DNA of 64,000 nt from an uncultured Pelagibacteraceae bacterium (lineage in GTDB: Bacteria; Pseudomonadota; Alphaproteobacteria; Pelagibacterales; Pelagibacteraceae): contig CABZDR010000002.1 in NCBI GenBank assembly GCA_902524535.1, forward strand, positions 124,001 to 188,000. The letters run 5' to 3'. Under the pieces are notes generated by a model that was not told where the DNA came from, did not search any database, and worked only from the letters and a program-made list of their open reading frames with translations. Below, piece after piece: positions 1 through 60,143 of this stretch. Position 1 is the stretch's first letter. Every line of letters starts with the position of its first letter. The translations under genes were made by a program, and so were the position numbers.

Positions 1-103
1 AAACATGAACATCTTCATTAATTTGCGATGCAGCAGAAATTGCATTTAAAGTAAAAGGTTTAACCTCTTTATTGTTATGTTCTGCTATTAATAAAACTGA
101 CAT
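1..103 (-). CDS. etfA: Electron transfer flavoprotein alpha subunit, N-terminal fragment (partial)
   Basis: Only the first 34 or so codons lie in the window; the gene continues past the left edge. The start reads [11 protein letters not shown], the usual opening of EtfA, the FAD-carrying subunit that passes electrons from flavin dehydrogenases to ETF-quinone oxidoreductase. Its ATG shares one base with the TAA of etfB (TAATG), so translation of the two subunits is probably coupled. The placement after dimethylglycine dehydrogenase and etfB suggests this ETF accepts electrons from that enzyme. The partner and the terminal acceptor cannot be read from this window. Confidence 0.85.
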   Translation of the reverse strand, partial: MSVLLIAEHNNKEVKPFTLNAISAASQINEDVHV

Positions 104-852
104 TATATTACTTTAGCCTCATTTTTTAATTTTTGAACTAATTCTTCAACACTTGCGACTTTAATCCCAGCCTTTCTTTTTGGGGGCTCTTCTACTTTAA
201 TTTGTTCTATTCTTGATTTTACGTCGACTCCAAGATCACCAGCACTTACTTGCTCTATAGGTTTCTTCTTGGCCTTCATTATATTAGGTAAAGATGCATA
301 TCTTGGTTCATTTAATCTTAAGTCACAAGTAACTATAGCAGGTACTTTCACCTCAATAGTCTCCAGTCCTTCATCTACCTCCCTAGTGACCTCCAATGAT
401 TTTTCTTTTACTTCTATTTTTGATGCAAATGTTGCTTGTGGCCAATTTAATAACGCAGCTAACATTTGACCGGTTTGATTGCAATCATCATCAATAGCTT
501 GTTTACCCATAAAAACTAGATCTGGCTTTTCTTTTTCAACAATCTTTTTTAAAATTTTGGAAACTGCCAAAGGTTCTATTACCCCATCAACTTTTACTAA
601 TATACCTCTATCAGCTCCAACAGCTAATGCTTTTCTTACAGTCTCTTGAGCCTTTTCTTCTCCTACCGAAACTGCTACAACTTCTTTAGCCTTGCCTGCT
701 TCTTTAATTTTTACTGCTTCCTCTATTGCATTATCATCTGGAGGATTTGTAGACATCTTAACATTTTCAGTAACTACCCCAGAGTTATCCTCTTTTACTC
801 TTATTTGAACGTTATAATCAATAACTCTTTTGACTGCGACTAGGATTTTCAT
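103..852 (-). CDS. etfB: Electron transfer flavoprotein beta subunit
   Basis: This 249-residue protein has the normal EtfB length and fold signals: an [10 protein letters not shown] start, a conserved [12 protein letters not shown] segment near residue 37, and the [19 protein letters not shown] stretch near residue 180, which is the EtfB signature and the recognition loop that docks to partner dehydrogenases. EtfB binds AMP and pairs with EtfA in the cytoplasm. The start codon overlaps the stop of the upstream dehydrogenase gene by one base (TAATG), and etfA follows with the same overlap. The three genes are almost certainly co-translated, which points to dimethylglycine or sarcosine oxidation as the main electron source. 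Confidence 0.95.
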
Positions 853-3284
853 TAAGCTCTCAATAATTTATTTTCATTATCATAAGGGCTTTCTTCCAAA
901 ATTGTTGCCTCGTACATTTTTCCTAGTATATCAACTTTTAGTTTTTCACCAACATTAGCTAAATCAGGTTTGACCATTGCTAGTGCGATTGATTTATCTA
1001 ATCTAAAACCATACTCACCACCTGTAGCTCTTCCAACCACTTTGTTATCTTTATAAATTGGATTGTTTCCTAAAACATCCGAGTCTGTTGTATTATGAAC
1101 CTCAAGAGTTACTAACTTATTATCAAAACCTTTTTCTCTCCATTTATTAAGCGCTTCTAAACCAATAAAGTTCCCTTTATTTGGATGAACAAATCGATCT
1201 AAACCTGACTCATATGGAGAATATTCAATTGACAATTCTGTACCTACAAGTTTGTAAGATTTCTCAATTCTTAAACTGTTCATCGCTCGTATACCAAAAG
1301 GTTTCAGTCCTAAGTCTTTACCGGCTTCCATCAACTTATCAAAAATATGATTTTGATATTCAATTGGATGGTGAAGCTCCCATCCTAACTCTCCAACAAA
1401 ATTTACTCGCATTGCATTTACTGGTGCATATCCAACATTGACATTTTTAGCAGTAAGCCATTTAAAGTTTTCATTTGAAAAATCATCTGTTGAAACTTTC
1501 TGCATCAGTTCCCTTGCTTTTGGCCCCGCAACTACAAGGACTCCAGTGCTATTTGTAAGATCCTCAAATATAACTGATCCATCTGTTGGCATCCATTTTT
1601 GGATCCAATCGTGGTCTAATCTTAAATTTGCACCTGCTGATACAAGATAGTAACTATTTTCTGCTTCTTTCATAATTGTAAATTCTGAATGCACACCACC
1701 TTTTGTGTTAAGGGCATGGCATAAATTTATTCTACCGATTTTTTTAGGTAGTTTATTTGCAACTAAATAATCTAAAAACTCCTCTGCTTTTGGACCTCTA
1801 ATTCTACATTTTGCAAATGCAGTCATATCTAATAATCCAACGTTTTTTTTCACGTTTTCACATTCTCTTTTAATTGCATCAAACCATTTAGATCTTCTAA
1901 ATGACCAATCATCTTTTTGTTCCATACCATCAGTTGCAAAAAAATTTGGTCTTTCCCAACCAAATTTTTGACCAAAAACTGCTCCAAGTTCTTTCATTCT
2001 TTCGTAACAAGGTGATGTTCTAAGTGGTCTTGCAGCTGGTCTTTCTTCATCAGGATAATGAACAATAAAAACGTGGCTGTATGCCTCCTCATTTTTTGCT
2101 TTCAAATAAGACTTAGTTGCATAGTTACCGTAACGTCTTGGCTCAACACCAAGCATGTCAATTGTTGGTTCACCATCAACGATCCACTCTGCCAATTGCC
2201 AACCTGCGCCACCCGCAGCAGTAATTCCAAAACTATGACCTTCATTAATCCAAAAGTTTTTTAATCCCCAAGCAGGACCAACTATCGGGTTTCCATCAGG
2301 AGTATAACAAATTGCCCCGTTGTAAACTTTTTTAACACCAACTTCACCAAAAGCAGGCACACGATGTATTGCGCCTTCAATATGTGGAGCAAGTCTATCT
2401 AGATCTTCCTGAAATAATTCATACTCTGAATTTTTTGATGGTCCTTCCACATAACAAGCAGGGGCACCATCCTCATATGGGCCTAGAATTAATCCACCAG
2501 CTTCTTCTCTCATATACCATCTGCTATCACTATCTCTTAATACACCCATCTCAGGTAGTCCCTCTTTTTTTCTTTTTTGAATTTCTGGATGAGGTTCAGT
2601 AACAATGTACTGATGCTCTACGGGTATAACCGGAATATCTAATCCTACCATTTCTCCAGTTTGTCTGGCAAAATTACCTGAACAAGAAATCACATGTTCA
2701 CATTCAATCGGTCCCTTGTCAGTTTCAACAATCCATCCATCTTTTGTTTGTCTCATTGATAAAACAGTAGTATTACGATAAATTTCAGCTCCTCTATTTC
2801 TTGCCCCTGTTGCAAGAGCTTGTGTTAAATCTGCTGGTTGAATATATCCATCTTCTGGATGTTGAATGGCTCCAATTAAATCATCGGTATGACACAAAGG
2901 CCAAATTTCTTTTACTTGTTGAGGTGTTAAAAATTTTACATCAACTCCTATAGTTTTTGCTACTCCTGCATACTGATGATATTCATCCATCCTGTCTTTC
3001 GTACTTGCGAGACGTATATTTGAAACAACACTAAACCCAACATTTTTTCCTGTTTCTTCTTCTAATGTTTTATAAAGATTAACAGCATATTTATGAAGCT
3101 GACCAACTGAATAACTCATATTAAATAGAGGCAATAGTCCAGCAGCATGCCAAGTTGAACCTGAAGTTAATTCTTTACGCTCAACTAAAACGACATCTGA
3201 CCATCCTTTTTTTGCTAAATGGTATAGAGCACTAACACCAACAACTCCTCCACCAACTACAACTACTTTTGTTTTAGTTTTCAT
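852..3284 (-). CDS. dmgdh: Dimethylglycine dehydrogenase (FAD/THF-dependent oxidative demethylase)
   Basis: This 810-residue flavoprotein has the two-part architecture of the dimethylglycine/sarcosine dehydrogenase family. An N-terminal FAD-binding oxidoreductase domain (about 1-400) carries GGGVVG at 11-16 and STWHAAG at 43-49; His46 matches the position of the covalent FAD histidine in family members. A C-terminal GcvT-like folate-binding domain (about 430-800) follows. The family removes N-methyl groups, yields methylene-THF when folate is bound, and reduces ETF. The etfB and etfA genes follow directly, supporting that route. A TAGGAA ribosome site precedes the ATG. Dimethylglycine versus sarcosine specificity is inferred from overall length and similarity and is not proven. 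Confidence 0.88.
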
Positions 3285-4999: not shown

Positions 5000-5374
5000 T
5001 TATTTTAGTTTGCCTTCTTCTCTCATCTTGGCTCTTATTTTAGTTGCAGAGATTTCTTGAATTTCTTTTGAGAGCTCAATTTCTTCAATTTGATAACCAA
5101 CCCCCCTACCATAACAAATATTTGTTATATTTGGTACTAACACAATTTTGTATCGTCCTTCAAATTCAGGTTTAAGTCTATCCTCTATATTTTTTTTCAC
5201 AGTTTCAAAATCAAATGGATTATCATCAACCCCTTGAACATCTCTAATCTGTATACAAACTTGACCTGTCTTTTTTAAAATTTCTTTAAATAATGCATAA
5301 TGACCATCGTGAAAGGGTTGCCACCTTCCTAGCATTTGAGCGGTTGGTTTTTTGTTGTCCCACTTATAGGTCAT
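5000..5374 (-). CDS. Small nucleotidyltransferase (cytidylyl/adenylyltransferase-like)
   Basis: I place the start at 5374, giving 124 residues (MTYKWDNKK...), because an AAGGAGA ribosome site sits at 5381-5387; a longer frame reaches 5431 but only by running into the kinase gene. The protein has the nucleotidyltransferase HxGH motif as PFHDGH (about 20-25) and the second motif ISATKIR at 108-114. Enzymes of this fold transfer AMP or CMP from a triphosphate to a phosphate or nucleotide acceptor. It overlaps the APS-kinase-like gene by 11 bases, so the two probably act together. The acceptor is unknown; NMN adenylyltransferase-like or ATP-sulfurylase-like roles are both possible. Confidence 0.75.
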   Translation of the reverse strand: MTYKWDNKKPTAQMLGRWQPFHDGHYALFKEILKKTGQVCIQIRDVQGVDDNPFDFETVKKNIEDRLKPEFEGRYKIVLVPNITNICYGRGVGYQIEEIELSKEIQEISATKIRAKMREEGKLK

Positions 5375-5780
5375 TTTTAATCTCCTTAAGTATTTTTGGA
5401 GCCCAATTTTTAGCATCTTGTGAGGTAACATGAAAGTTATACTTATCAGGCTTTACAAACATTTTATTAGTATCTTCAAATCTACCTTCTTTAATAGTAT
5501 CAACCCAAATAATAAAATCCGCAGGAAATAATTTCCTAGCCTCAGGTGTTGGGCATATGAAATCAGCTACGACAAAACTTCCATCTTCTTTTAGCTTTAA
5601 GGCAAAATCAGCCATTCTTTTTGATTGTCTTTTTCTTCCTTCCTCTGAAAAATCCCAGTCATTTGCCTCTTTTCTCACTTGGTCAGCGTTTAATCTTTTG
5701 GCATTAAGTAATGGAGCCAACTCATTAGCCAAGGTTGTTTTTCCTGACCCAGGCAGACCCATTATTAAAATAATTTTCAT
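5364..5780 (-). CDS. Adenylylsulfate-kinase-like P-loop kinase
   Basis: With the ATG at 5780 the protein has 138 residues and begins directly at the nucleotide-binding strand, with Walker A GLPGSGKTT at about 8-16. The NADQVRKEANDWDFSEEGR segment and the following VVADFICPTPEARK correspond to the APS kinase DGDxxR, FSxxxR and FxSP regions. A longer frame to 5855 adds an unlikely N-terminal tail into the divergent promoter. APS kinase phosphorylates adenylyl sulfate, but divergence from the canonical DGDNVR motif and the lack of any sulfate reduction gene nearby leave the true substrate open. It overlaps the nucleotidyltransferase gene downstream. Confidence 0.7.
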   Translation of the reverse strand: MKIILIMGLPGSGKTTLANELAPLLNAKRLNADQVRKEANDWDFSEEGRKRQSKRMADFALKLKEDGSFVVADFICPTPEARKLFPADFIIWVDTIKEGRFEDTNKMFVKPDKYNFHVTSQDAKNWAPKILKEIKNDL

Positions 5781-5826
5781 AATTGTTTTGTGGCAATAAA
5801 AATCGATTCTATCAAGCTGAATTTCT

Positions 5827-5855
5827 TTGACAGCTTTTTTAAAAAAGATAATCAT
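5827..5855 (+). promoter_or_regulatory. Possible -35 box and AT-rich palindrome ahead of the metF-like gene
   Basis: A perfect TTGACA lies at 5827-5832, 31 bases before the metF-like ATG. No good -10 sits at 17 bases; TAATCA (5849-5854) and GATAAT (5847-5852, spacing only 14) are the best candidates. A 14-base palindrome CTTTTTTAAAAAAG (5834-5847) fills the spacer and could be an operator or just an AT-rich coincidence. The 83-base interval serves both the metF-like and the divergent kinase gene. Confidence 0.3.
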
Positions 5856-5863: not shown

Positions 5864-6592
5864 ATGAACTTTTCTCTAGAAATAGGCCCGACTACTGACC
5901 TGGATACTGTTCCTCCGGTTAAAGATATTTACATAACAATGTTACCAGGTGGGGACTATAAAGAGACAGCACAACAAGCAGTTGAGTTAGTTAAAAAAGG
6001 TTTCAATCCTGTTCCTCACTTTCCAGCAAGATCAATGCAGAATGAAAAACAACTAAAAGATTATGTTTTAAGGTGTAAAGATGGTGGCGTAAAACAAGTT
6101 CTAGTAATTGGTGGTGGAAGAGAACCAATGGGAAAATTTGACAGCTCGTTTCAACTTTTGGAGACTGGTTATTTTGAGAAGATGACAATAGGAATTGCTG
6201 GACACCCAGAGGGGAGTCCTGATATATCCGACTCAGATTTAGAAAAAGCTATGATAGATAAAAAGCCTTATGCTGATTATATAGTAACACAGTGGTTATT
6301 AGATCCCCAGCCTATTATAGATTTTGTATCTAAACAAAGCGTACCAGTGCATGTAGGAATTACTGGCCCTCTTAAAATATCAAGCTTGATTAAGTTTGCA
6401 AACATTGTAGGAGCAAAAAATTCCTTAAATTTTCTTAAATCTAATTTTACTAAGGCTTTAGATTTATTAAAACCTAAAGACCCTAATGATTTAATTGGGA
6501 AACTTAAATCACATACTGATTTCTTTCACATTTATACATTTGGCGGCTTGAAGGAAACTAACAAGTGGTTGAAGGAGAATAGTTATGTCTAA
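5864..6592 (+). CDS. Short methylenetetrahydrofolate reductase-like protein
   Basis: This 242-residue protein keeps recognisable MetF landmarks: an N-terminal SLEIGP, PVPHFPARS at 49-57, VIGGGREPMG near 81-90, IAGHPEGSP at 111-119 and VTQWLLD near 141-147. Typical MetF has about 290-300 residues; the deficit is mainly between the first strand and the PVPH region. MetF enzymes interconvert 5-methyl-THF and methylene-THF with FAD. The next gene, a DmdA-like methyltransferase, overlaps it by 8 bases, so this protein probably oxidises the methyl-THF made by that partner. That coupling is inferred from gene order and from similar pairings in other THF demethylation clusters. Confidence 0.8.
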   Translation: MNFSLEIGPTTDLDTVPPVKDIYITMLPGGDYKETAQQAVELVKKGFNPVPHFPARSMQNEKQLKDYVLRCKDGGVKQVLVIGGGREPMGKFDSSFQLLETGYFEKMTIGIAGHPEGSPDISDSDLEKAMIDKKPYADYIVTQWLLDPQPIIDFVSKQSVPVHVGITGPLKISSLIKFANIVGAKNSLNFLKSNFTKALDLLKPKDPNDLIGKLKSHTDFFHIYTFGGLKETNKWLKENSYV

Positions 6593-7943
6593 AGAATTTG
6601 ACTATACAAAATTAAAGCATTTTACTTCAGTAGATCAATCAGATCGAAAAGTTCCATACAATTTAAGACAAAGTGGTCCAACAAAAGTTGAGATGTTGAT
6701 TTCTACAAGGGTAAGAAAGTCACCGTATTGGCATTTATCAATGCAAGCTGGATGTTGGAGAGCAACTGTTTATAATCGTATTTATCATCCAAGAGGATAC
6801 GTAAAACCAGAACATGGTGGGGCTATGGTGGAATATGATGCTATTGTAAACCATGTTACAATGTGGAATGTTGCTGTTGAAAGACAAATACAAGTTAAAG
6901 GTCCTGATGCAGAAAAATTTGTTGATTACGTAATCACAAGAGACGCAACTAAGATCTCACCAATGAGAGCAAGATATGTAATTTTGTGTAATGCTTATGG
7001 TGGAGTTTTGAATGATCCAATTCTTCTAAGAATTTCAAAAGATGAATTTTGGTTTTCATTATCAGACTCTGATATAGGGATGTATTTACAAGGTGTAAAT
7101 GCAGATGGAAGATTTAATTGCACTATAGAAGAAATAGATGCATGTCCGGTACAAATACAAGGTCCTAAATCAAAAGCACTTATGAAAGATTTATTAGGAG
7201 ATCAAGTTGATTTAGAAGATATGCCTTTTTATGGATTAGCTGAAGTTAAAGTAGCTGGAAGAAGTTGTGTTATTTCTCAGTCAGGTTTTTCGGGTGAGGC
7301 TGGATATGAAATTTATTTAAGAGATGCAACCCTATATGCCGACGAAATGTGGAATGCTGTTCTTAAAGTTGGAAAGAAACATAATTTGATGGTTATTGCT
7401 CCTGCTCATCACAGAAGAATACAAGCAGGTATACTATCTTGGGGACAGGATATGGATCAACAACATAATCCTTTTCAATGTAATTTAGGCTATCAAGTTT
7501 CTTTATCAGGTAAAGGCGAGTGGAATAAAAAATCTGATTATGTGGGTAAGGCAGTTTTAGAAAAAATGGGAGCAGAGCTTAAAGCTGGAAAAAAACCTTA
7601 TAAGTTACAATTGGTTGGGCTTGAAATGGGTGGAAAACCGATTGATGACTACGCCCCTGATTTTTGGTTAATATCAAATGAAAACGGTGGAGATCCAGTT
7701 GGATTTATTACTTCCCCTTGGTATCATCCAGAAAAAAAGATAAATATCGCTATGGGATATGTACCTTTTGATGGAACTCTTAATGCAAATGGTTTTCCAA
7801 AAGGAAAAGTGGGCACAAAATATAAAGTTCATTTACCTGAAAAATATTCTAGCACTCCCGGCAAACCAGTTGATGCAGTGGTTACAGATATACCATTTAA
7901 AGAGTCATATAACGCTAATACAAGAGAAGTATCTAAAGGCTAA
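6585..7943 (+). CDS. GcvT/DmdA-family THF-dependent methyltransferase paralog
   Basis: This 452-residue protein belongs to the aminomethyltransferase family. MWNVAVERQI (93-102), GGVLNDPILLRISKDEFWFS near 143-162 and CPVQIQGPKS near 190 match the DmdA branch (DMSP demethylase) better than GcvT. It is about 80 residues longer than SAR11 DmdA as I remember it, with an N-terminal extension. Members move a methyl group to THF in the cytoplasm. The start has a GGAGA site and overlaps the short MetF gene. The substrate is unknown: DMSP, another sulfonium or a methylated amine are all possible. Calling it dmdA would overstate the evidence. Confidence 0.8.
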   Translation: MSKEFDYTKLKHFTSVDQSDRKVPYNLRQSGPTKVEMLISTRVRKSPYWHLSMQAGCWRATVYNRIYHPRGYVKPEHGGAMVEYDAIVNHVTMWNVAVERQIQVKGPDAEKFVDYVITRDATKISPMRARYVILCNAYGGVLNDPILLRISKDEFWFSLSDSDIGMYLQGVNADGRFNCTIEEIDACPVQIQGPKSKALMKDLLGDQVDLEDMPFYGLAEVKVAGRSCVISQSGFSGEAGYEIYLRDATLYADEMWNAVLKVGKKHNLMVIAPAHHRRIQAGILSWGQDMDQQHNPFQCNLGYQVSLSGKGEWNKKSDYVGKAVLEKMGAELKAGKKPYKLQLVGLEMGGKPIDDYAPDFWLISNENGGDPVGFITSPWYHPEKKINIAMGYVPFDGTLNANGFPKGKVGTKYKVHLPEKYSSTPGKPVDAVVTDIPFKESYNANTREVSKG

Positions 7944-16088: not shown

Positions 16089-16163
16089 TGCAGAAACCGA
16101 AGGTATGTGATTAGATTATAGCTTATTATAATGTTTAACATAACTAAATATAAGGGAGGAATA

Positions 16164-17504
16164 ATGTTAGCAAATATAATTAAAAGGCTAGCTTCTACTC
16201 TAACAGTAGTTATCGCTTTATTTTCTTCACTTACTTTACCTCAAAGTGTATCTGCTGCTGAGACGCAATATTTTCCAGTAGCTAGTAGTCGTGTTGGACC
16301 TTACTCAGCAATGGGTACTGGTTACTACGGGGCTCAAATTGATTACATGAACTATGTAAACATGACAGGTGGAGTAAACGGAGTAATGCTTACATGGCAA
16401 GAATGTGAGACTGAGTATAATGCGGTAAAAACAGTAGAATGTTACCAAAGACTTTTAGAAAAAGATGGTCAAAGAATAGTAGTGTTTGATACTTTAGGAA
16501 CACCAGGAGCGTACGCAGTAATTAACCGAATGGCTAAAGACAATGTGGTTTTAGCTCAATATGGTTATGGAAGAACTGATGGTGCTGATGGAAGAGTATG
16601 GCCTTGGGTATTTAATGCTGCAAGTCACTACTGGTCACAAATAGCTGTTAAATTAAAATTTATGGCACAGATCGAAGGCGGAATCGATAAGATGAAAGGT
16701 AAAAAAATCGTTCATTTACACATTGACTCTGCTTACGGAAGAGAGCCATTACCAGCTATGAGAAAAATTTGTAATGACTGGGGAGTTGAATTGATTGAAA
16801 TCTCAATTCCACCTCCAGGTCTAGAACAACAATCTCAGTGGTTACAAATTAGAAAAGAAAAGCCTGATTGGGTAACTTTTTGGGGAGCGGGTTCTGGTAT
16901 GAATTCAACAGCAATGACTAATGCTGCTAGAATTAATTTCCCAAGAGATAGGATGATGTATGTAACTTTTGGTGCTGCTGAAGAGGATATGTATCCAGCA
17001 GGTGACGCAGCTAAGGGAACTTATGCTGTTGCAAATGCTTTACCAGGAGAATATCCATTAGTTAAAGACATCAAAGATAAAGTATATGGTGCTGGAAAAG
17101 GTAACTTAGCTGATCCAAATAGGATTGGTTCAGTTTACTGGAATAGAGGACTAGGTGCTGCAGTTATGTGGATTGAGGCATTAAGAATTGCTCAAAAAAT
17201 GCATAACAAAGTTGGTAAAGCAGTAACTGGTGCTGAGTTTAGAGATGGTTATGAAAATTTAAACATGACTGAAGCTAGACTTACTGAACTTGGAGTTGGA
17301 GGAATGTTAGCTCCATTCGCTATTTCATGTGCAAACCATGAAGGTGCCGGTAAATTTGCTGTAATGCAGTGGGATGGAACAAAGTTCAATCAGGTAACTG
17401 GTTGGGAAGCTCCAGGTGATCCTGCATTTATTAGAGGTCTAGTTGAAGACTCTGCAGCAAAATTTGCTAAAGAGAACAACATTACACCGAAAAAATGCAG
17501 TTAA
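16164..17504 (+). CDS. ABC transporter periplasmic binding protein (branched-chain amino acid type)
   Basis: I start this gene at the ATG at 16164, preceded by GGGAGGA, giving 446 residues; a longer frame from 16131 would bury the signal peptide. Residues 1-32 form a signal peptide ending SVSAAE. The mature part is a two-lobed Peripla_BP_6/LivK-type receptor (opening YFPVASSRVGPYSAMGTGYYG, later HIDSAYGREPLPAM). It is larger than LivK and of a divergent subgroup, so the ligand is uncertain. A strong hairpin follows at 17537-17578, then the two ATPases and two permeases of the same system. Confidence 0.9.
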   Translation: MLANIIKRLASTLTVVIALFSSLTLPQSVSAAETQYFPVASSRVGPYSAMGTGYYGAQIDYMNYVNMTGGVNGVMLTWQECETEYNAVKTVECYQRLLEKDGQRIVVFDTLGTPGAYAVINRMAKDNVVLAQYGYGRTDGADGRVWPWVFNAASHYWSQIAVKLKFMAQIEGGIDKMKGKKIVHLHIDSAYGREPLPAMRKICNDWGVELIEISIPPPGLEQQSQWLQIRKEKPDWVTFWGAGSGMNSTAMTNAARINFPRDRMMYVTFGAAEEDMYPAGDAAKGTYAVANALPGEYPLVKDIKDKVYGAGKGNLADPNRIGSVYWNRGLGAAVMWIEALRIAQKMHNKVGKAVTGAEFRDGYENLNMTEARLTELGVGGMLAPFAISCANHEGAGKFAVMQWDGTKFNQVTGWEAPGDPAFIRGLVEDSAAKFAKENNITPKKCS

Positions 17505-17536
17505 TTAATTTAGAGATAAATTAATACCAATAATCG

Positions 17537-17578
17537 AAGGGGGAGTTTAGATAATCAAATTATTTTAAACTCCCCCTT
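17537..17578 (+). terminator. Hairpin between binding-protein and transporter genes
   Basis: AAGGGGGAGTTTA (17537-17549) pairs perfectly with TAAACTCCCCCTT (17566-17578), 13 bp, and an inner ATAAT/ATTAT pair extends it. TTTA follows, a short T-run. This is likely a leaky terminator or a 3' end stabiliser that gives more binding protein than membrane components, as is common for ABC receptor genes. Confidence 0.8.
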
Positions 17579-17617
17579 TAAATAAAATTTAATATAAATA
17601 TAATAGAAAAAAATTTA

Positions 17618-18433
17618 ATGAGTACTTCAACTAACATCCTTGATATTAAAAATATTGAAGTAATGTATGACAATGTCATTTTAGCATTACATGATGTTTC
17701 GTTAAAAGTGCCTAAAGGAAAAGTGGTAGCATTACTTGGAGCTAATGGCGCAGGTAAAAGTACTACACTAAAAGCAGTTTCAACTATGTTAGCCTCAGAA
17801 AGAGGCAAAGTTACAAAAGGTTCAATTGATTATGATGGCACTTCTATTGATAAACAAAACCCTTCACAAATGGTTGGGCTTGGTATGGTTCAAGTATTAG
17901 AGGGTAGAAGATGCTTTGGTCACTTGACTGTTGAAGAGAACATTATCTCAGGGGCTTATTCAAGGAAATTATCAAAAGGTGACATCAATCAAGAATTAGA
18001 AAAAATATATACATATTTTATAAGATTAAAGGAAAGAAGAAAAAGTCAAGCAGCATTTACATCAGGCGGAGAGCAACAAATGATAGCAGTCGCAAGAGCC
18101 ATGATGGCAAAACCTAAAATGCTCCTTTTGGATGAACCTACTATGGGTTTAGCACCACAATTAGTGGCTGAAATCTTTAATATTGTAAAAGAATTAAACC
18201 AAAAAGAAGGTGTTAGTATTTTACTTGCTGAGCAAAATACCAACGTTGCACTAAAAAACTCAGATTACGGGTACATTATTGAAACAGGAAGAGTTATGTT
18301 AGATGGAACAGCCAAAAGTTTATTGAGTAATGACCAGGTAAAAGAATTGTATTTAGGTATTTCAAAGAAAGGTAGAAAAAATTTCAGAGACGTACTTAAA
18401 GAAGAAAGTTTAACTAAGAAAAAAATTAACTAA
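17618..18433 (+). CDS. ABC transporter ATP-binding protein (LivF-like)
   Basis: This 271-residue ATPase energises the Liv-type importer. Walker A is GANGAGKST (41-49), the signature is SGGEQQMIAVARAM, and Walker B is MLLLDEPTMGL. The LivF class is indicated by LGMVQVLEGRRCFGHLTVEENI after the Q-loop. It has a basic tail of about 25 residues (SKKGRKNFRDVLKEESL) beyond the usual LivF end. The LivG-like partner begins two bases after its stop. Together they form the cytoplasmic ATPase heterodimer. Confidence 0.93.
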   Translation: MSTSTNILDIKNIEVMYDNVILALHDVSLKVPKGKVVALLGANGAGKSTTLKAVSTMLASERGKVTKGSIDYDGTSIDKQNPSQMVGLGMVQVLEGRRCFGHLTVEENIISGAYSRKLSKGDINQELEKIYTYFIRLKERRKSQAAFTSGGEQQMIAVARAMMAKPKMLLLDEPTMGLAPQLVAEIFNIVKELNQKEGVSILLAEQNTNVALKNSDYGYIIETGRVMLDGTAKSLLSNDQVKELYLGISKKGRKNFRDVLKEESLTKKKIN

Positions 18434-18435
18434 AG

Positions 18436-19230
18436 ATGACACAAGAAAGAAAATTTAAAATAGGGAAACCAATATTAGAAGTAAAAAATATCTCACTTTC
18501 TTTTGGTGGTGTTAAAGCAATAACTGATACCTCGTTCGATGTACTCGAGCATGAAGTTAGAGCTATAATAGGACCTAATGGAGCTGGAAAAAGCTCAATG
18601 CTTAATTGTATAAACGGAATTTATAAGCCTCAACAAGGAACTGTTTCTTTTAAAGGAAAAGAAATACCAAACATTACCCCCAATATCATGGCGCAAATGG
18701 GTCTTTCTAGAACATTTCAAAACTTAGCTCTATTTAAAAGAATGTCTGTCCTGGATAATATTTTAGTAGGCCGTAAGCTTCATACAAAAACAAATTTTCT
18801 TGAAGTTGCTTTTCAACTACCTAAAGTAAAAAAAGAGGAAAAACTAAATAGAGATAGATCTGAGGAGATAGTTAGTTTTTTAGAGATTGAAGATATTAAA
18901 GACACACCAGTTGGAAAACTTCCCTATGGACTACAAAAAAAAGTTGAGTTAGGTAGGGCCCTTGCAACAGACTCCTCAATAATTTTATTAGACGAACCAA
19001 TGGCAGGAATGAACGTTGAGGAAAAGAGAGATATGTGCAGATTTATTTTAAAAGTAAATGATGAATTGGGTACCACTATGGTTCTTATTGAACATGACAT
19101 GGGAGTAGTTATGGACATATCAGATAGAGTTGTAGTGCTTGATTATGGTAAAGTTATTGGAGATGGTACGCCTGATGAAGTAAGATCAAATCAAAAAGTA
19201 ATAGACGCTTATTTAGGGGTGGAACACTAG
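18436..19230 (+). CDS. ABC transporter ATP-binding protein (LivG-like)
   Basis: This 264-residue ATPase has Walker A GPNGAGKSS (near 51-59), Q-loop GLSRTFQNLALF typical of LivG, and the signature as LPYGLQKKVELGRALA, where LPYG replaces LSGG as is usual in LivG. Walker B is IILLDEPMAGM and the H-loop is LIEHDM. It is two bases from the LivF-like gene and ten from the first permease gene. The ATG at 18436 follows AAAG. Confidence 0.93.
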   Translation: MTQERKFKIGKPILEVKNISLSFGGVKAITDTSFDVLEHEVRAIIGPNGAGKSSMLNCINGIYKPQQGTVSFKGKEIPNITPNIMAQMGLSRTFQNLALFKRMSVLDNILVGRKLHTKTNFLEVAFQLPKVKKEEKLNRDRSEEIVSFLEIEDIKDTPVGKLPYGLQKKVELGRALATDSSIILLDEPMAGMNVEEKRDMCRFILKVNDELGTTMVLIEHDMGVVMDISDRVVVLDYGKVIGDGTPDEVRSNQKVIDAYLGVEH

Positions 19231-19239
19231 GATTAAAAT

Positions 19240-20148
19240 ATGGTTGATGAATTATTATTTTTTATGGAAGTTTTGGTTGGCGGTTTGCTTGCCGGAACTA
19301 TGTACTCACTTGTAGCTTTAGGATTTGTTCTAATTTTTAAAGCTTCAGCAACATTTAATTTCTCACAAGGGGCTATGGTTTTTTTCTCAGTTCTAGCTTT
19401 TTGTGGTTTCATGCAAGATTTTAACATACCTTTTGTACTTGCATTTATTTTAGCTGCTTTTTTAATGGTAGTAGTTGGTTTGTGTACTGAAAGATTTGTT
19501 TTAAGACCTTTGATGAATGCTAGCGAGGATACAGTGCTAATGGCTACAATCGGTCTAGGATATGTTTTAGAAGGTTTGGCTCAGGCAGCGTGGGGAGTAG
19601 AAGTTAGAAGACTAGATTTAGGTATAGGAGATTTTCCAGTGCCGTGGATCGCTGATAACTTAAAACTATTTATTAGTGCTCTTGATATTACCGCAGGACT
19701 TGTTGCAGCTATTATGATTATTGGTTTATTCCTTCTATTTAAATATACAAAAATTGGTCTTGGTTTGAGAGCTGTTGCAGATGATGCTGGTGCCGCTAGT
19801 TCAATAGGAATTCCTTTAAAACATATTATGTTATTAGTTTGGTCTGCTGCGGGGGTTGTAGCTTTGGTTGCAGGATGTATGTGGGGTGCAAGAGCAGGTG
19901 TTCAATTTGCTCTTGTTGACTTAGCTTTAAAAGCTTTGCCAGTATTAATTATAGGTGGTTTTTCATCTATTCCAGGAGCAATTATCGGAGGCTTAATTAT
20001 TGGTGCTGTGGAGAAGGTGTTAGAAGTATACATTGGACCGTTTTTTGGAGGAGCTATTGAAGGTTGGGCTCCTTACGTATTAGCAATATTCTTTTTATTA
20101 TATAGACCGGAAGGTTTATTTGGAGAAAAAATTATTAGGAGAGTTTAA
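19240..20148 (+). CDS. ABC transporter permease (LivH-like)
   Basis: This 302-residue inner-membrane protein has about eight spans and the LivH sequence pattern: GLLAGTMYSLVALGFVLIFKAS near 16-37, FNFSQGAMVFF near 38-48, and the conserved cytoplasmic loop GLGLRAVADDAGAASSIGI that contacts the ATPases. Its C-terminus LYRPEGLFGEK is typical. It pairs with the LivM-like permease three bases downstream to form the translocation path. Confidence 0.93.
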   Translation: MVDELLFFMEVLVGGLLAGTMYSLVALGFVLIFKASATFNFSQGAMVFFSVLAFCGFMQDFNIPFVLAFILAAFLMVVVGLCTERFVLRPLMNASEDTVLMATIGLGYVLEGLAQAAWGVEVRRLDLGIGDFPVPWIADNLKLFISALDITAGLVAAIMIIGLFLLFKYTKIGLGLRAVADDAGAASSIGIPLKHIMLLVWSAAGVVALVAGCMWGARAGVQFALVDLALKALPVLIIGGFSSIPGAIIGGLIIGAVEKVLEVYIGPFFGGAIEGWAPYVLAIFFLLYRPEGLFGEKIIRRV

Positions 20149-20151
20149 TTT

Positions 20152-21216
20152 ATGAAACCAGTTTTTATGACTTATACAAAAAAAGACCTAATTAACTTAG
20201 CTGTTTGTATGGTTCTGAGTGTATTTGTAATACCAACATTTATTACAACAGAATATTGGTACACTTCTATATTGATTCCTTGGCTTTGTTTGGCTTTAGC
20301 TACAATTGGACAACAAATTGTTATGGGTTACACAGGACAGCTAGCTTTGGGTGCAGCTGGTTTTATGGCTGCAGGGGCATTCGCCATGTTTAATCTTATT
20401 TTACGAGTGCCTGATCTTGGTTTCGTAGGCTCACTAATAGTGTCAGGTTTAATTGCTGCAGCTTTTGGAATTTTATTTGGTCTTCCTAGTTTAAAAGTAA
20501 GAGGAATTTATCTAATGGTAGCCACGTTAGCTTCGCAGTTTTTTATTATATGGATGATAGATAAATTTGGTTGGTTTAAAAACTACGACTCATCAGGAAT
20601 TATAACTGCTCAAGATATAGTTATCTTAGGAAAACCATTTACAACTCCATTAGCCATGTATTTTGTCTGTTTAGCTGTTACCACAGTATTAACCTTACTA
20701 GCGATGAACATGGCTAGAGGTAGCACTGGCAGGAATTGGATGGCAGTAAGAGATATGGATATAGCTGCAGAGTCAATGGGAGTTTCATTATTAAGAACAA
20801 AGGTACAAGCATTTGCCATCAGCGCATTTTATTGTGGTGTTGCAGGTGCACTTTTTGCATTTTGTTATCTTAAATCTTTAGAGCCAGTTGCATTTGATAT
20901 TAAACTATCTTTTAAAATATTATTTATGTGTATTTTGGGTGGGCTAGGCACAATTAATGGTGCTTTTATTGGTGCAGCATTTATCCTACTTTTTCCCGTT
21001 CTCTTAAACGCAATTGGTAACAATGTATTTCATGGTGCAATTGACGCAACAATTATATCTTCTATAGAGCAAGTGATATTTGGTGGGTTGATGATTATTT
21101 TTATGATTTATGAGCCTTTAGGGATGGCAAAACTTTGGGAAAACATCAAACAAAAATGGAAGACAAAAATTCCTTCGTCAACAAATATAAAGTCTTCTCT
21201 TAGCAAAAAAACCTAA
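20152..21216 (+). CDS. ABC transporter permease (LivM-like)
   Basis: This 354-residue inner-membrane protein has about nine to ten spans. LivM signals are GQQIVMGYTGQLALGAAGFM near 53-72, GLPSLKVRGIYLMVATLASQF near 115-135 and the ATPase-contact loop RNWMAVRDMDIAAESMGV. A lysine/serine-rich tail ends the protein. It is the last clear component of this five-gene importer. A tiny ORF starts two bases after its stop. Confidence 0.93.
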   Translation: MKPVFMTYTKKDLINLAVCMVLSVFVIPTFITTEYWYTSILIPWLCLALATIGQQIVMGYTGQLALGAAGFMAAGAFAMFNLILRVPDLGFVGSLIVSGLIAAAFGILFGLPSLKVRGIYLMVATLASQFFIIWMIDKFGWFKNYDSSGIITAQDIVILGKPFTTPLAMYFVCLAVTTVLTLLAMNMARGSTGRNWMAVRDMDIAAESMGVSLLRTKVQAFAISAFYCGVAGALFAFCYLKSLEPVAFDIKLSFKILFMCILGGLGTINGAFIGAAFILLFPVLLNAIGNNVFHGAIDATIISSIEQVIFGGLMIIFMIYEPLGMAKLWENIKQKWKTKIPSSTNIKSSLSKKT

Positions 21217-39576: not shown

Positions 39577-40431
39577 TTATCGATTTATACCTCTGAGTCT
39601 TTCAGATCTTCGTCTTAAAAGTTCAGCAGTCACTAATATTAATGTTGATAATATAATTAGACAAGTTGCAACAGCAAGAATTGTTGGGCTTAATTGCTCT
39701 CTTAAACCGGTCCACATTTGAATTGGAATGGTTGTGTTTTCTAATCCAGCTAAAAATAAAACAACCACTACCTCATCAAATGAAGTAACAAATGCAAACA
39801 ATCCTCCAGATATTACTCCAGGCAAAATAAGTGGTAAAGTTATTTTCATAAATGTATTTACAGGATCACTGCCCAAACTAGCAGCTGCTCTTGTCACGCT
39901 ATGATCAAATCCTGAAAGAGTTGCGGTTACTGTAATAACAACAAATGGTGTCCCCAAAATAATATGCGCAAGAACTATTCCCGTGTGTGTGGCAGCTAAT
40001 CCAACTTTAGCCATAAAGAAAAATATCGCTACACCTGAAATAATTAAAGGAACTATCATTGGTGAGATTAATACTGCCATGATTAAACCTTTGTACGGCA
40101 TATGTCTACTACTCAAACCTAAAGCTGCTACTGTTCCAAGAATTACCGAACCTATTGTTGCAAAGATAGCAATTATAAAACTATTTTTTGCAGCTAATCC
40201 CCAAGGATTTTTAGTCCCATAAATCATATCTTGATACCATCTTAAAGAAAATGCATCAGGATCTAGACGTTTCATTCCATCTGAAAAAACTAAAAATTCC
40301 TCAGCATTAAAAGATAATGGAAAAATAACAAACAATGGTGCAACAAGAAAAAAGAATACTGCTGCACAGATTGTCAAATAAACATAGTGCCAAATTCTAT
40401 AATGTGGTTCTGTGTATTTGGGTAAAGCCAT
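39577..40431 (-). CDS. potC: Polyamine-type ABC transporter permease (PotC-like)
   Basis: This 284-residue membrane protein has six spans and the family loop AAASLGSDPVNTFMKITLPLILPGVISG near 173-199 (EAA motif) that contacts the ATPase. The N-terminal YLTICAAVFFFLVAPLFVIFPLSF is the first span. It pairs with the PotB-like gene five bases upstream. Spermidine/putrescine transport is the family default; related systems carry other cations or organic solutes, so the ligand is inferred. Confidence 0.88.
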   Translation of the reverse strand: MALPKYTEPHYRIWHYVYLTICAAVFFFLVAPLFVIFPLSFNAEEFLVFSDGMKRLDPDAFSLRWYQDMIYGTKNPWGLAAKNSFIIAIFATIGSVILGTVAALGLSSRHMPYKGLIMAVLISPMIVPLIISGVAIFFFMAKVGLAATHTGIVLAHIILGTPFVVITVTATLSGFDHSVTRAAASLGSDPVNTFMKITLPLILPGVISGGLFAFVTSFDEVVVVLFLAGLENTTIPIQMWTGLREQLSPTILAVATCLIILSTLILVTAELLRRRSERLRGINR

Positions 40432-40436
40432 TTTTA

Positions 40437-41690
40437 TTATCCTAATTTAATATTATCTATTCCAACTAATTTATTGTACAGCCAGTAAATGACTAATACT
40501 CCACTTAACAACATTAGTCCCATTGCTGAAGCAAAGCTCCAATCGAGAGTACTTTTCATATGAAATGCTATTTGGTTACTTATCAATGTTCCTGAAGCTC
40601 CCCCTACTAAAGCAGGAGTAATGTAGTAACCTATTGCTAAAATGAAAACTAATAAACATCCAGCTCCGATACCTGGGATTGTTAAAGGAAAATAGACCTT
40701 CCAAAAAGCCACAAAAGGGGTTCCGCCTAATGACTTACCAGCTCTCATTAAACTTGGGGAGATTGTTTTCATCACACTGTAAAGTGGAAGCACCATAAAA
40801 GGCAATAATATTTGGGTCATTGCAACGTAACTACCAGTTTTATTAAACATCATTTCTAGTCTGTTATCATCGCTTACTAGTCCAATCATGACAAAGAAAT
40901 CATTGACTATACCTTGCTGTTGTAAAAGGATCATCCAACTGGCTGTTCTTACAAGTAAGGAGGTCCAAAAAGGAAGTAAGACACAAATCATCAATAAATT
41001 ACTGTACTTCATTGGCAATGTTGCAAGTAAATGTGCTATTGGATAAGCCATCAAGAAACAAAACACAGTTACAAAAAAAGCAATTTCTAAAGTTCTTAGC
41101 CATAATATTCTGTGAACTCTTCTATCCTCAGGTACATTAATTATTTCTCCCTTTTCATTTTCATACATATCAACTCCTTTTAAATATTTTTGATACGTAT
41201 ATGCTGGTGCTCTTCTTTTAATTGCCCTCCAATATTCAACATCAGCCCATCTTCGATGAACAGACATGATTTGTTCTTTGTAATTTCCTTCCTCAAAAGA
41301 TTTAGACTTTCGTCTTAACTTTTTGATAATACTTTTAAATCCATTTTTTGTATAATTAAGTTGGGTTGATAATTTTCCTTCTCTTTCCTCCTCAATTAAT
41401 TTTTGGAAATCAAAATAAAAAGCCTCAAATACCTCTTCAGGTGGAAGGTCTTCTCCATCCCATTTTTCCATTGACTTAAAAGTTTTAGGAAGCATTTCTG
41501 TGACCATTTTATCATCAACACTTCTCATAAGCATATCTCCTATTGGAAATACATACGTAATGATTATGAATAACAATAATGGAGCAACAAGTAAAAAAGC
41601 TTTAATCTTATTTTTCTTTTCTGCTTTTTTAAGACTTACCTCTAAAGGAATTCCATCAGTTGTTAAAATTTGTTTTGTTTCTGAGCTCAT
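40437..41690 (-). CDS. potB: Polyamine-type ABC transporter permease (PotB-like) with large loop insertion
   Basis: This 417-residue permease is about 120 residues longer than typical PotB. After the first span (about 31-50) there is a long charged, helical stretch (about 55-185, including KLIEEEREGKLSTQLNY and RAPAYTYQKYLKGVDMYEN) before the remaining five spans. The EAA loop SLMRAGKSLGGTPFVAFWKVYFPLTIPG lies near 315-340. The insertion faces the periplasm by the usual topology and could interact with the binding protein. The ATG lies just after the T-run of a hairpin. Confidence 0.88.
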   Translation of the reverse strand: MSSETKQILTTDGIPLEVSLKKAEKKNKIKAFLLVAPLLLFIIITYVFPIGDMLMRSVDDKMVTEMLPKTFKSMEKWDGEDLPPEEVFEAFYFDFQKLIEEEREGKLSTQLNYTKNGFKSIIKKLRRKSKSFEEGNYKEQIMSVHRRWADVEYWRAIKRRAPAYTYQKYLKGVDMYENEKGEIINVPEDRRVHRILWLRTLEIAFFVTVFCFLMAYPIAHLLATLPMKYSNLLMICVLLPFWTSLLVRTASWMILLQQQGIVNDFFVMIGLVSDDNRLEMMFNKTGSYVAMTQILLPFMVLPLYSVMKTISPSLMRAGKSLGGTPFVAFWKVYFPLTIPGIGAGCLLVFILAIGYYITPALVGGASGTLISNQIAFHMKSTLDWSFASAMGLMLLSGVLVIYWLYNKLVGIDNIKLG

Positions 41691-41699
41691 AAATAAAAA

Positions 41700-41721
41700 G
41701 GGCGGTTAATAATAACCGCCC
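41700..41721 (-). terminator. Terminator-like hairpin between potD and potB
   Basis: GGGCGGTTA and TAACCGCCC form a perfect 9-bp stem with a four-base loop (41700-41721). Read on the minus strand it is followed by TTTTTATTT and then immediately the potB ATG at 41690. It has full intrinsic terminator form and would limit permease expression relative to the binding protein. Confidence 0.85.
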
Positions 41722-41761
41722 TCTCAATATAATATAAAATTTTAATCTTTAAAACTTAAAA

Positions 41762-42877
41762 TTAAAATCCTGCTTTCATTGCTTCCCATTTTTCACCAAG
41801 TTCTGTTCCATTATCAGCCCAGTAAAGTGGATCTACTAAGAAGTAATTTTTAGTGTTCGCTGGCGCAGTTGGCATATTAGGTACCATGTTTGTCTTACCA
41901 TCTTTGTACCATGGCTCTCCTTTTTCCATAACTGCGATTGATGATTTTCTCCAAGGCGCGTATGCAATATATTTCGCACTTCCAGCTAAACCTTCTGTAC
42001 TTGTCATCTCTGCTAAAGCTTTTTTAGCATCAGCTTCATTTGGTGAACCTTTAACTAATACAAAGTATTCATAGTCAAGACCTTGTGCATCCCAAACTTG
42101 TACGATTGGAGCACCTTCTCCAACTGCAGCGTTAAAGAATCTACCATTCCAGCCAGTTGCCATAACAACTTCACCGCTCATTAGCAATTCTGGTGGTTGA
42201 GCACCTGCAGACCAAAATACACATCCACCTTGTGGGTCTGTGCAAAGTTTTTTGATCTTATCCATAGCTCTTTGAACACCTTTGTCAGTATTTAAAGCTT
42301 TATAGATTTTTGCTCCACCTTTACCTGGCTTGATACCATCTGCAGCTAATGCAATCTCTAAATTAGTTAGAGCGCCTTTGTAGATAGCTCTTTTTCCAGG
42401 AAATTTTTTTGTGTTAAAGAAATCTTTGATAGTTTTTGGAGTGCCTTTAACATTGTCTGAGTTATAAGCATAGTTCCAAGAATATAAAATATTTCCTACA
42501 GCACATTCACTTGGCATTCCAGTAAAGAAATCTTTACTTGCTGGAGTTCCATCTGGTGCTGGTGGGAAGTCTTTATCAAAATCAAATTTAACAAATAATC
42601 CTTCATCACAGCCATTGATAGTATCCATGGCAAATACGTCCATTATATCCCACGTAATTTTGCCAGCTTCTTTCTGTGCTTTAATTTCTGATAATCCACC
42701 TGAGTAGTCGACCCAATTGATCGGAATACCTAGTTTTTTAGCAGTAGGATCACCATAACCTAATTTTTGACTTTCAGTATAAGCTCCACCCCAAGACGCT
42801 ACAGTTACTGCGAACGCTGAAGTAGTTAAAGAAAATACAAAAGAAAGGGCTAGTAATAATTTACTAATTTTTTTCAT
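41762..42877 (-). CDS. potD: Polyamine-type periplasmic binding protein (PotD-like)
   Basis: This 371-residue protein has a signal peptide (1-23, ending TSAFA) and a mature family 1 extracellular solute-binding fold: VTVASWGGAYTESQKLGYGDP at the start, NILYSWNYAYNS near 149-160 and a C-terminal LVDPLYWADNGTELGEKWEAMKAGF. It captures cationic amines for the PotABC membrane complex. Cys pairs in the GCDEG and CTDPQGGC regions may form disulfides. A consensus-like promoter and GGAGGA site precede it, so it is expressed separately from potA, which lies 104 bases upstream. Confidence 0.88.
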   Translation of the reverse strand: MKKISKLLLALSFVFSLTTSAFAVTVASWGGAYTESQKLGYGDPTAKKLGIPINWVDYSGGLSEIKAQKEAGKITWDIMDVFAMDTINGCDEGLFVKFDFDKDFPPAPDGTPASKDFFTGMPSECAVGNILYSWNYAYNSDNVKGTPKTIKDFFNTKKFPGKRAIYKGALTNLEIALAADGIKPGKGGAKIYKALNTDKGVQRAMDKIKKLCTDPQGGCVFWSAGAQPPELLMSGEVVMATGWNGRFFNAAVGEGAPIVQVWDAQGLDYEYFVLVKGSPNEADAKKALAEMTSTEGLAGSAKYIAYAPWRKSSIAVMEKGEPWYKDGKTNMVPNMPTAPANTKNYFLVDPLYWADNGTELGEKWEAMKAGF

Positions 42878-42912
42878 TTTTCCTCCGTTTAAACGTTTTT
42901 TTATAAAAGTAG

Positions 42913-42941
42913 ATTACAACAAGATCGATAATGAGAGTCAA
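42913..42941 (-). promoter_or_regulatory. Sigma-70-type promoter for potD
   Basis: On the minus strand, TTGACT (42936-42941) and TGTAAT (42913-42918) are separated by exactly 17 bases. The predicted transcript starts about 30 bases before the potD ATG, with a GGAGGA-type site at 42881-42886. This gives the binding-protein gene its own promoter inside the pot cluster. Confidence 0.65.
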
Positions 42942-42981
42942 CAGCCCATTTTTACTTGCTAAATGAAGGTATATAGAGTGT

Positions 42982-46118: not shown

Positions 46119-46157
46119 TTAGCTTTATACAAATTGTTAACAAATAAAAGGATAATA

Positions 46158-47339: not shown

Positions 47340-47353
47340 TTTATCTTAAAATT

Positions 47354-47389
47354 AAAACCCCCAACATAAATTTGTTGGGGGTTTTTTTT
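47354..47389. terminator. Strong bidirectional intrinsic terminator
   Basis: AAAACCCCCAACA (47354-47366) pairs with TGTTGGGGGTTTT (47373-47385), 13 bp with a six-base loop, followed by more T on the plus strand and preceded by A on the other side. It lies between the convergent binding-protein gene and livM-like gene and can end both transcripts. Confidence 0.9.
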
Positions 47390-47459
47390 AAAAAAATAAA
47401 TATTTATCAGCCATATATAATGCCCAAGCAATAGCAGCGCCTGTAATAATATATTTCAT
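47388..47459 (-). CDS. 23-residue hydrophobic microprotein after LivM
   Basis: Four bases after the LivM-like stop, an ATG opens a 23-residue frame (MKYIITGAAIAWALYMADKY, ending LFF) that ends inside the terminator. It is a short single-span-like peptide. Its position matches that of the 27-residue ORF after the first LivM gene. No ribosome site is obvious apart from the upstream coupling. It may be a chance ORF. Confidence 0.3.
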   Translation of the reverse strand: MKYIITGAAIAWALYMADKYLFF

Positions 47460-47463
47460 AAAC

Positions 47464-50550: not shown

Positions 50551-50552
50551 GT

Positions 50553-51338: not shown

Positions 51339-51341
51339 TAA

Positions 51342-52109: not shown

Positions 52110-52135
52110 AAATATTCTATAATGATTAATTTATA

Positions 52136-56644: not shown

Positions 56645-56647
56645 ACA

Positions 56648-58134: not shown

Positions 58135-58151
58135 AATTTGCCTTTAAAAAA

Positions 58152-58182
58152 AAAATACCCCCTAAATTTTAGGGGGTATTTT
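58152..58182 (-). terminator. Terminator-like hairpin after the binding-protein gene
   Basis: A 13-bp stem (58152-58164 with 58170-58182, core TACCCCCTA/TAGGGGGTA) lies ten bases after the binding-protein stop. On the minus strand it is followed by a run of about ten T and then the LivH-like ATG at 58134. It is a textbook intrinsic terminator form that must be partly read through. Confidence 0.9.
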
Positions 58183-58192
58183 AAGATTTTTA

Positions 58193-60135: not shown

Positions 60136-60143
60136 AAAAAAAA

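Follow-up and report, generated by a model that had tools for sequence, protein, structure and literature searches.

A conserved metF/aminomethyltransferase gene pair of SAR11 bacteria as a candidate tetrahydrofolate-dependent route for glycine betaine demethylation

The metF/AMT gene pair in SAR11

We analysed a 64,000-nucleotide stretch of DNA (the window) from an uncultured Pelagibacteraceae bacterium of the SAR11 group (GenBank assembly GCA_902524535.1, contig CABZDR010000002.1, positions 124,001 to 188,000 of the forward strand), focusing on two adjoining genes that encode a short protein of the methylenetetrahydrofolate reductase (MTHFR) family, MetF, and an aminomethyltransferase-like protein of the DmdA/GcvT superfamily, AMT. 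A preceding reading of the window made from its letters alone (the sequence-only reading) had proposed that the pair forms a demethylation module dependent on tetrahydrofolate (THF), and the analysis described here leads us to predict that AMT is a glycine betaine demethylase. The two genes lie in the window as follows:

5864..6592, plus strand: short MetF, MTHFR family, 242 amino acids; ATG start; Pfam MTHFR match
6585..7943, plus strand: AMT, DmdA/GcvT superfamily, 452 amino acids; ATG start; Pfam GCV_T match; predicted THF-dependent glycine betaine demethylase

Calling of open reading frames (ORFs) bore out both genes, their lengths and the 8 bases that they share. AMT matches Pfam GCV_T with 136.2 bits (cut-off 25.6), and its only other Pfam match, to GCV_T_C, is sub-threshold (23 versus 25.9 bits). 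MetF passes the threshold of the Pfam MTHFR family (26.1 bits, cut-off 24) and does not reach that of the canonical MetF model TIGR00676 (25.9 versus 293.7 bits). AlphaFold2 models of AMT and MetF (mean pLDDT of 41.6 and 51.2, respectively) were too poor to be used, probably because the alignments were limited to close SAR11 relatives.

The pair is strictly conserved in SAR11. We collected 111 SAR11 loci carrying AMT (L009-L119; L009-L038 and L119 come from a different collection than L039-L118, and the two may share genomes), and in all 109 with enough upstream DNA MetF adjoins AMT at the identical 8-base overlap, the remaining two being too short. As every testable locus keeps MetF at the same overlap, the arrangement is not due to chance and is under selection. 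The window AMT is 99-100% identical to that of the best named loci, all from uncultured Pelagibacteraceae. Across Pelagibacterales, AMT was matched in 167 of 197 genomes at E<=1e-60, or in 160 when seven genomes whose best match reached only E 1e-60 to 1e-70, the level of paralogs, are counted as lacking it (G044, G170, G190, G033, G073, G075, and G093).

The gene pair itself is already known. Sun et al. (2011) described SAR11_1264/SAR11_1265 of Ca. Pelagibacter ubique HTCC1062, which we match to our pair by description and not by sequence, as metF next to a gene for a DmdA-like aminomethyltransferase, to which they gave no substrate beyond a speculation about methylmercaptopropionate (MMPA); fhs is SAR11_1285 in that genome (PMC3160333). 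The two genes also appear in a 2016 listing of genes with changed expression (PMC5069961). The label "uncharacterised" given to the module in the sequence-only reading thus holds for its biochemistry but not for the pair as such. The function predicted here, namely glycine betaine as the substrate, is new as far as our literature searches reach: no published betaine assignment for AMT, including that of haloarchaea, was found in searches that left most subscription journals and preprints outside their range.

AMT and its relatives

AMT stays well below the cut-offs of the NCBIfam models for the characterised members of its superfamily, i.e. DmdA (228.9 versus 410 bits), GcvT (147.8 versus 300 and 134.1 versus 235.85 bits), LigM (34.7 versus 580 bits), and DesA (42.3 versus 800 bits). 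The window genome has a DmdA of its own (L006; 560.1 bits against the cut-off of 410), which is 31.7% identical to AMT over 271 amino acids, as well as a separate GcvT-like protein of 367 amino acids (L001). A maximum-likelihood tree was built from 42 rows, none of them LigM. It unites the 26 close orthologs of AMT in a single clade with support of 100/100 (27 rows and 83/36 when the divergent relative L162 is added) and the 12 DmdA and DmdA-like rows in another (98/96). The deeper branching order is uncertain, and the outgroup branches are long. By these measures AMT is a paralog apart from DmdA, GcvT, and LigM, as had been proposed, and it falls outside the characterised DmdA and GcvT clades.

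Residue patterns point the same way. A tryptophan ("W171") has been described as the key residue of DmdA specific for dimethylsulfoniopropionate (DMSP) (PMC7487153); by our own mapping, from the spacing of W171, E178, and Y180, it corresponds to W197 of the P. ubique enzyme. This position holds Phe in 26 of the 27 AMT rows and Trp in all 12 DmdA and DmdA-like rows, whereas the folate-side residues Glu-204 and Tyr-206 (DmdA numbering) are kept in all 27 AMT rows; the position of DmdA His-34 is Arg in 25 of the 27. In the window AMT, the residues aligned to Trp-197 and His-34 are Phe-235 and Arg-65. Further, the N-terminal extension noted in the sequence-only reading carries a motif, VDQ[SG]DRxxPxNLRQ[ST]G (VDQSDRxxPxNLRQSG in the window), present in 26 of the 27 AMT rows and in none of the 12 DmdA and DmdA-like rows, and on that ground we regard the extension as a real feature of the clade. 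Among the 111 long SAR11 AMT matches, 106 have the N-terminal motif and all have the Phe-bearing motif. AMT would thus resemble DmdA in its THF-binding fold and in the predicted transfer of a methyl group from an onium zwitterion to THF, but it differs in the extension, the Trp-197 to Phe exchange, the separate clade, and the score below the DmdA cut-off.

The divergent row, L162 from genome G212, has 49% identity, the Trp and His of DmdA and no N-terminal motif, and was retained in the AMT counts despite its divergence. G212 carries three further DmdA-like genes, and L162 may bridge the DmdA-like proteins and the AMT clade.

Genes associated with AMT

The sequence-only reading had drawn attention to genes for dimethylglycine dehydrogenase (DMGDH), electron transfer flavoprotein (ETF), and formate-THF ligase (fhs) in the window, which we located as follows:

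852..3284, minus strand: DMGDH, 810 amino acids; predicted next step (dimethylglycine to sarcosine and methylene-THF); PDB match 4p9s
103..852, minus strand: ETF beta subunit, predicted electron acceptor for DMGDH; Pfam ETF, 149.8 bits
13466..15148, plus strand: fhs, one-carbon (C1) units to formate; Pfam FTHFS, 878.8 bits

The DMGDH matches mammalian-type DMGDH entries best and over its whole length, the top PDB match being 4p9s ("Dimethylglycine dehydrogenase"; 655.6 bits, residues 2-799). DMGDH and ETF are both present as had been claimed, but they are not directly divergent from metF/AMT, as the intervening DNA holds five ORFs on the minus strand, each 120 amino acids or longer. The fhs gene, put at about 6 kb, lies 5.5 kb downstream of the pair, and a C1 route to formate is plausible. 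Directly upstream of metF, at 5003-5431 and 5367-5855 on the minus strand, a small APS-kinase/AAA-like kinase gene and a 143-amino acid ORF overlap, the ORF having no Pfam match and looking nucleotidyltransferase-like by eye; this couple recurs in L165.

AMT and DMGDH are associated in SAR11. Among the named SAR11 loci whose upstream DNA exceeds 5.8 kb, 48 of 60 were found to have DMGDH. Of the 197 SAR11 genomes, with DMGDH scored as present at E<=1e-180, 147 have AMT and DMGDH, 13 only AMT, 9 only DMGDH and 28 neither (Fisher 1.4e-16). The two genes often lie only kilobases apart, so that both go missing when one contig does, related genomes do not count as independent, and none of the co-occurrence p-values given here is corrected for ancestry or shared contigs. 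In genus g5, 4 of the 16 genomes among the rows listed have both genes and 12 have neither.

Beyond Pelagibacterales, AMT was detected by blastp in 16 of 385 genomes searched in the class (49-83% identity) and in 4 more among 398 searched in the phylum (64-69%). Neighbouring genes were counted by tblastn, as ORF calls in GC-rich loci include spurious frames. Ten of the 16 class genomes, including G379 at 9.2 kb, and 3 of the 4 phylum genomes carry a DMGDH-family gene no more than 10 kb from AMT, i.e. 13 of 20, although several of these genomes share a genus or family (f32, f77, and f206 with three each) and the independent cases are fewer. Class genomes have soxB/soxA near AMT in 7 of 16. The linkage to MetF, which is fully kept in SAR11, is looser here, with 7 of the 20 proteobacterial genomes having MetF close to AMT (4 of 16 in the class and 3 of 4 in the phylum set). 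Several loci are richer in related genes. L148, L149, and L151 combine a soxBDAG-like row (soxD and soxG named by eye) with a DMGDH-like gene, a 293-amino acid MetF and AMT; in L148, SoxB scores 671.6 bits (cut-off 529.45) and SoxA 1120.1, slightly under its cut-off of 1164. L199-L201 hold AMT, fhs, and a DMGDH-like gene, with MetF in two of the three and, in L199, a serine ammonia-lyase (682 bits, cut-off 345.1). In L147, DMGDH, ETF beta, an ETF-alpha-like gene (by eye), and ETF-QO (Pfam) follow right after AMT, and in L165 an ETF-alpha-like gene (by eye) and ETF-QO likewise continue the ETF genes. fhs is near AMT also in L160, L163, and L166 and in the haloarchaeal loci L175 and L176.

AMT further occurs in 16 haloarchaeal plasmid records (49.6-56.0% identity at 91-98% coverage), some of which are the same strain sequenced twice; Haloarcula hispanica ATCC 33960 is among the carriers. 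As the haloarchaeal rows nest within the bacterial clade beside L161 (support 99/98), the tree suggests that haloarchaea acquired AMT from bacteria by transfer. Eight of these loci were examined, of which seven have an MTHFR gene and six a DMGDH-family gene less than 10 kb from AMT; L174 has neither at its AMT locus. Various haloarchaeal AMT loci contain genes for DHFR, folP, pabAB, folD, fhs, glyA, ilvA, formate dehydrogenase, and creatininase, and L170 has a betaine/choline/carnitine transporter (BCCT) in the cluster. In L170, L172, L173, L175, L176, and L177, folate-synthesis genes (DHFR, folP, or pabAB) stand beside AMT and MTHFR, and the plasmid clusters look like a whole THF-based methyl-catabolic island acquired together. 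Betaine use by haloarchaea was raised in 2011 from BCCT transporters and dimethylglycine oxidases (PMC3102087), a paper from which the word "aminomethyltransferase" is absent. Taken together, and judged from gene content, the neighbours of AMT spell betaine uptake, loss of three methyl groups, folate supply, C1 oxidation, and a path from glycine through serine to pyruvate.

The enzyme shown to demethylate betaine in aerobic marine bacteria is the cobalamin-dependent MtgBCD (PMC12478193). We searched for the MtgB family, PF06253, in 20 AMT-bearing genomes, 24 AMT-lacking genomes and 4 SAR11 genomes. The AMT-lacking controls were hand-picked and not random, some being without a match and others having DmdA-like matches. 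PF06253 is present in 3 of the 20 AMT-bearing and 15 of the 24 AMT-lacking genomes and was found in none of the 4 SAR11 genomes (the window genome and three others). When the genomes are restricted to those with a DMGDH of at least 55% identity to that of the window, a split picked after seeing the data and one that leaves out the four extra phylum genomes, which lay outside the DMGDH identity survey, PF06253 is found in 8 of 8 AMT-lacking versus 2 of 12 AMT-bearing genomes (Fisher 7e-4). A count of full-length PF06253 genes only (0 of 12 AMT-bearing, Fisher 8e-6) was set aside, as the two partial matches are each cut by the end of a contig. In AMT-lacking genomes, the PF06253 gene lies 78 bp (G407), 115 bp (G304), 232 bp (G389), and 1503 bp (G300) from DMGDH and in G211 34 kb away; for G278, G312, and G392 no close pair was found among the rows listed. 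Correspondingly, the DMGDH ortholog is 127-725 bp from AMT in AMT-bearing G452, G480, G557, G271, and G356. In class genomes, the AMT-adjacent DMGDH is 56-79% identical to that of the window, and the same ortholog type adjoins PF06253 in the four AMT-lacking genomes with a close pair. In the genomes compared, then, AMT and PF06253 enzymes tend to replace each other next to the gene for the same following step.

Predicted demethylation route and alternatives

Because the linkage to DMGDH and the pattern with PF06253 point to glycine betaine, we predict, with a probability of roughly two in three, that AMT demethylates glycine betaine in a THF-dependent reaction without cobalamin and works with MetF running in reverse. 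Glycine betaine would pass one of its methyl groups straight to THF on AMT, giving dimethylglycine and 5-methyl-THF with neither cobalamin nor homocysteine taking part, and MetF would oxidise 5-methyl-THF to 5,10-methylene-THF. DMGDH with ETF, followed by sarcosine dehydrogenase/oxidase, would take off the other two methyl groups as methylene-THF, and FolD, Fhs, and formate dehydrogenase would convert the C1 units into formate and CO2, leaving glycine. The more general statement, that an onium compound is demethylated to THF and the methyl-THF then oxidised, is very probably right, and that glycine betaine is the main substrate is probable; the methyl donor, called unknown in the sequence-only reading, can thus be narrowed.

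The direction of MetF is suggested by its relatives and by its genome. The window MetF matches only the PDB sequence of 7xg9/7xlf at E<=1e-3, with 116 bits, and 7xg9 is the best PDB match of all three AMT-linked MetFs compared (SAR11, 116 bits; L148, 139.5 bits; haloarchaeal L173, 128.4 bits), the other MTHFRs being far behind or without a match. We take 7xg9 to be the oxidative MTHFR of Sphingobium SYK-6. According to a review, one subfamily of MTHFRs, with that of SYK-6 as an example, works preferentially in the oxidative direction alongside a LigM-type demethylase (PMC13001107). The two systems would share the logic of a GcvT-fold THF demethylase with an oxidising MTHFR, but the substrates of the SYK-6 LigM system are lignin-derived aromatics (PMC13001107), unlike the one predicted for AMT. 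Further, the MetH activation domain was found in none of 31 genomes and a MetE-type PF01717 protein neither in the window genome nor in the complete genome G026; metH and metE are also absent from Ca. P. ubique (PMC5069961). As no methionine synthase was found that would use 5-methyl-THF, its oxidation is the sensible direction for MetF, and methyl-THF is probably oxidised in the lineage of the window. MetF is the sole match to MTHFR in the 88%-complete window genome, where no second one was found, and DmdA, which also makes 5-methyl-THF, is present; the description of MetF as a dedicated reductase is therefore doubtful in SAR11, where the enzyme is probably best viewed as shared with DmdA.

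That MetF is instead an ordinary reductive enzyme supplying 5-methyl-THF, which AMT uses as a methyl donor in biosynthesis, would agree with the names of its family, with a chemistry that is reversible in principle and with the PF01717 matches in 13 of the 31 SAR11 relatives. We consider this very improbable, given the missing MetH and MetE in the window genome and G026, the closeness of MetF to 7xg9 and not to canonical MetF, the described oxidation-preferring subfamily with its LigM-type partner, and the catabolic genes (DMGDH, SOX, serine ammonia-lyase, and formate dehydrogenase) in the clusters. Scarcely credible, too, is that AMT takes the second methyl group of DMSP (methylmercaptopropionate to mercaptopropionate), the speculation made for SAR11_1265 by Sun et al. 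DmdA is the closest solved relative of AMT (PDB 3tfh, 149.7 bits), and a published tree groups SAR11_1265 with DmdA (PMC3160333). However, the DMSP-specific Trp is replaced in AMT, no DmdA-like match at E<=1e-50 was found in 10 of the 16 non-SAR11 class genomes with AMT (at most four candidates being scored per genome), AMT sits within N-methyl/folate clusters on haloarchaeal plasmids, and MMPA is assigned to the DmdB/DmdC route in the 2016 paper (PMC5069961).

A substrate other than glycine betaine, such as proline betaine, beta-alanine betaine, homarine, or carnitine derivatives, with the DMGDH neighbourhood reflecting general N-methyl catabolism, is unlikely but deserves more weight. The family of DMGDH-like proteins is broad, a genome having several paralogs, more than one of which stands beside PF06253; haloarchaeal clusters contain creatininase and an aspartoacylase-like gene; and in the AMT cluster of Haloarcula marismortui plasmid pNG700 a carnitine-monooxygenase-like Rieske oxygenase gene (L173:18037-19176) lies between two DMGDH-like genes. 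Against this, the DMGDH beside AMT is of the ortholog type found beside PF06253, the window DMGDH matches the mammalian type best over its full length, and no gene specific to another betaine recurs across lineages in the loci examined.

For SAR11, and for SAR11 alone, Mausz et al. (2025) proposed that Bhmt is used for betaine, a proposal that by their own account is not experimentally validated and in whose main text "GcvT" is nowhere found (PMC12478193); Sun et al. suggested SAR11_1303 for betaine instead (PMC3160333). Like the predicted AMT, Bhmt takes the first methyl group off glycine betaine, but it passes the methyl to homocysteine, is tied to methionine output, and belongs to PF02574, a family that also holds homocysteine methyltransferases. 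We note that PF02574 is unassociated with DMGDH in SAR11 (p 0.15) and that 34 of the 147 genomes with AMT and DMGDH have no PF02574 match, hence no Bhmt found, including G017, G024, and G048, which are 97-99% complete; as PF02574 hits are mixed, counting absence as no match at all is the stricter statement. In such genomes there is no Bhmt found to supply dimethylglycine, although uptake of dimethylglycine itself is possible. Inspected by eye, the best 12 PF02574 loci, like the PF02574 protein of the window genome, which reaches no NCBIfam cut-off, resemble two homocysteine-methyltransferase types and no clear Bhmt.

Several points weigh against glycine betaine demethylation by AMT. THF is a weak nucleophile toward quaternary ammonium, so that the methyl transfer is hard chemistry. 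Judged by gene context, a related betaine with similar products would look no different from glycine betaine. No queried pathway genes were found in the stretches examined of L152-L154, L156, L161, and L162 and of haloarchaeal L174, L153 and L154 being short. The Rieske oxygenase of L173 has carnitine monooxygenase as its closest solved structure (148 bits to 6y8j) and is possibly a second betaine-attacking enzyme. Of the AMT-bearing genomes with PF06253, G494 holds full-length PF06253 genes as well as AMT, and the matches in G441 and G557, cut at contig ends, may be whole genes. PF06253 members act on other betaines too (PMC12478193), and in the control genomes the family is also near other DMGDH paralogs; as a family of several activities, its exchange with AMT speaks more firmly for "a betaine demethylase" than for "glycine betaine". 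A direct AMT route conflicts with the Bhmt-only proposal, and PF02574 proteins, of mixed kinds, occur in 148 of the 197 SAR11 genomes. Finally, 9 of the 13 genomes with MetE-type PF01717 are among the 12 of family f2, which weakens the argument from MetF direction there.

SAR11 bacteria, the most abundant in the ocean, oxidise glycine betaine, a major marine osmolyte. On the proposed Bhmt route, every demethylation of betaine would be coupled to the formation of one methionine, whereas transfer to THF, if it takes place, would uncouple betaine respiration from methionine synthesis. It would also dispense with vitamin B12, unlike MtgBCD. The latter, of Ruegeria pomeroyi, performs the same reaction as predicted here (glycine betaine + THF to dimethylglycine + 5-methyl-THF) with MetF2 as its partner, but it is an unrelated cobalamin-dependent enzyme of several parts (PMC12478193); AMT would be one protein. 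Together with DmdA, the direct route would explain why SAR11 retains MetF despite missing MetH and MetE, and AMT would provide a genetic marker with which to follow the turnover of betaine in oceans and brines. With somewhat less assurance than for the reaction itself, we lean towards AMT being the first known single-protein, cobalamin-free glycine betaine:THF methyltransferase and the main energy-yielding entry of betaine in SAR11, passed between Proteobacteria and haloarchaea, with whole folate-based betaine islands on megaplasmids.

Elsewhere in the window, we note several branched-chain/urea-type ABC transporter sets (16131-21216 and 46134-59431, by eye from ORFs) and one spermidine/putrescine-type set (39577-44067, by eye). 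An Rfam rhtB small RNA (60126-60208, minus strand; 77.4 bits, cut-off 55) lies at the start of an ORF for a LysE/RhtB-like exporter (59521-60135, by eye).

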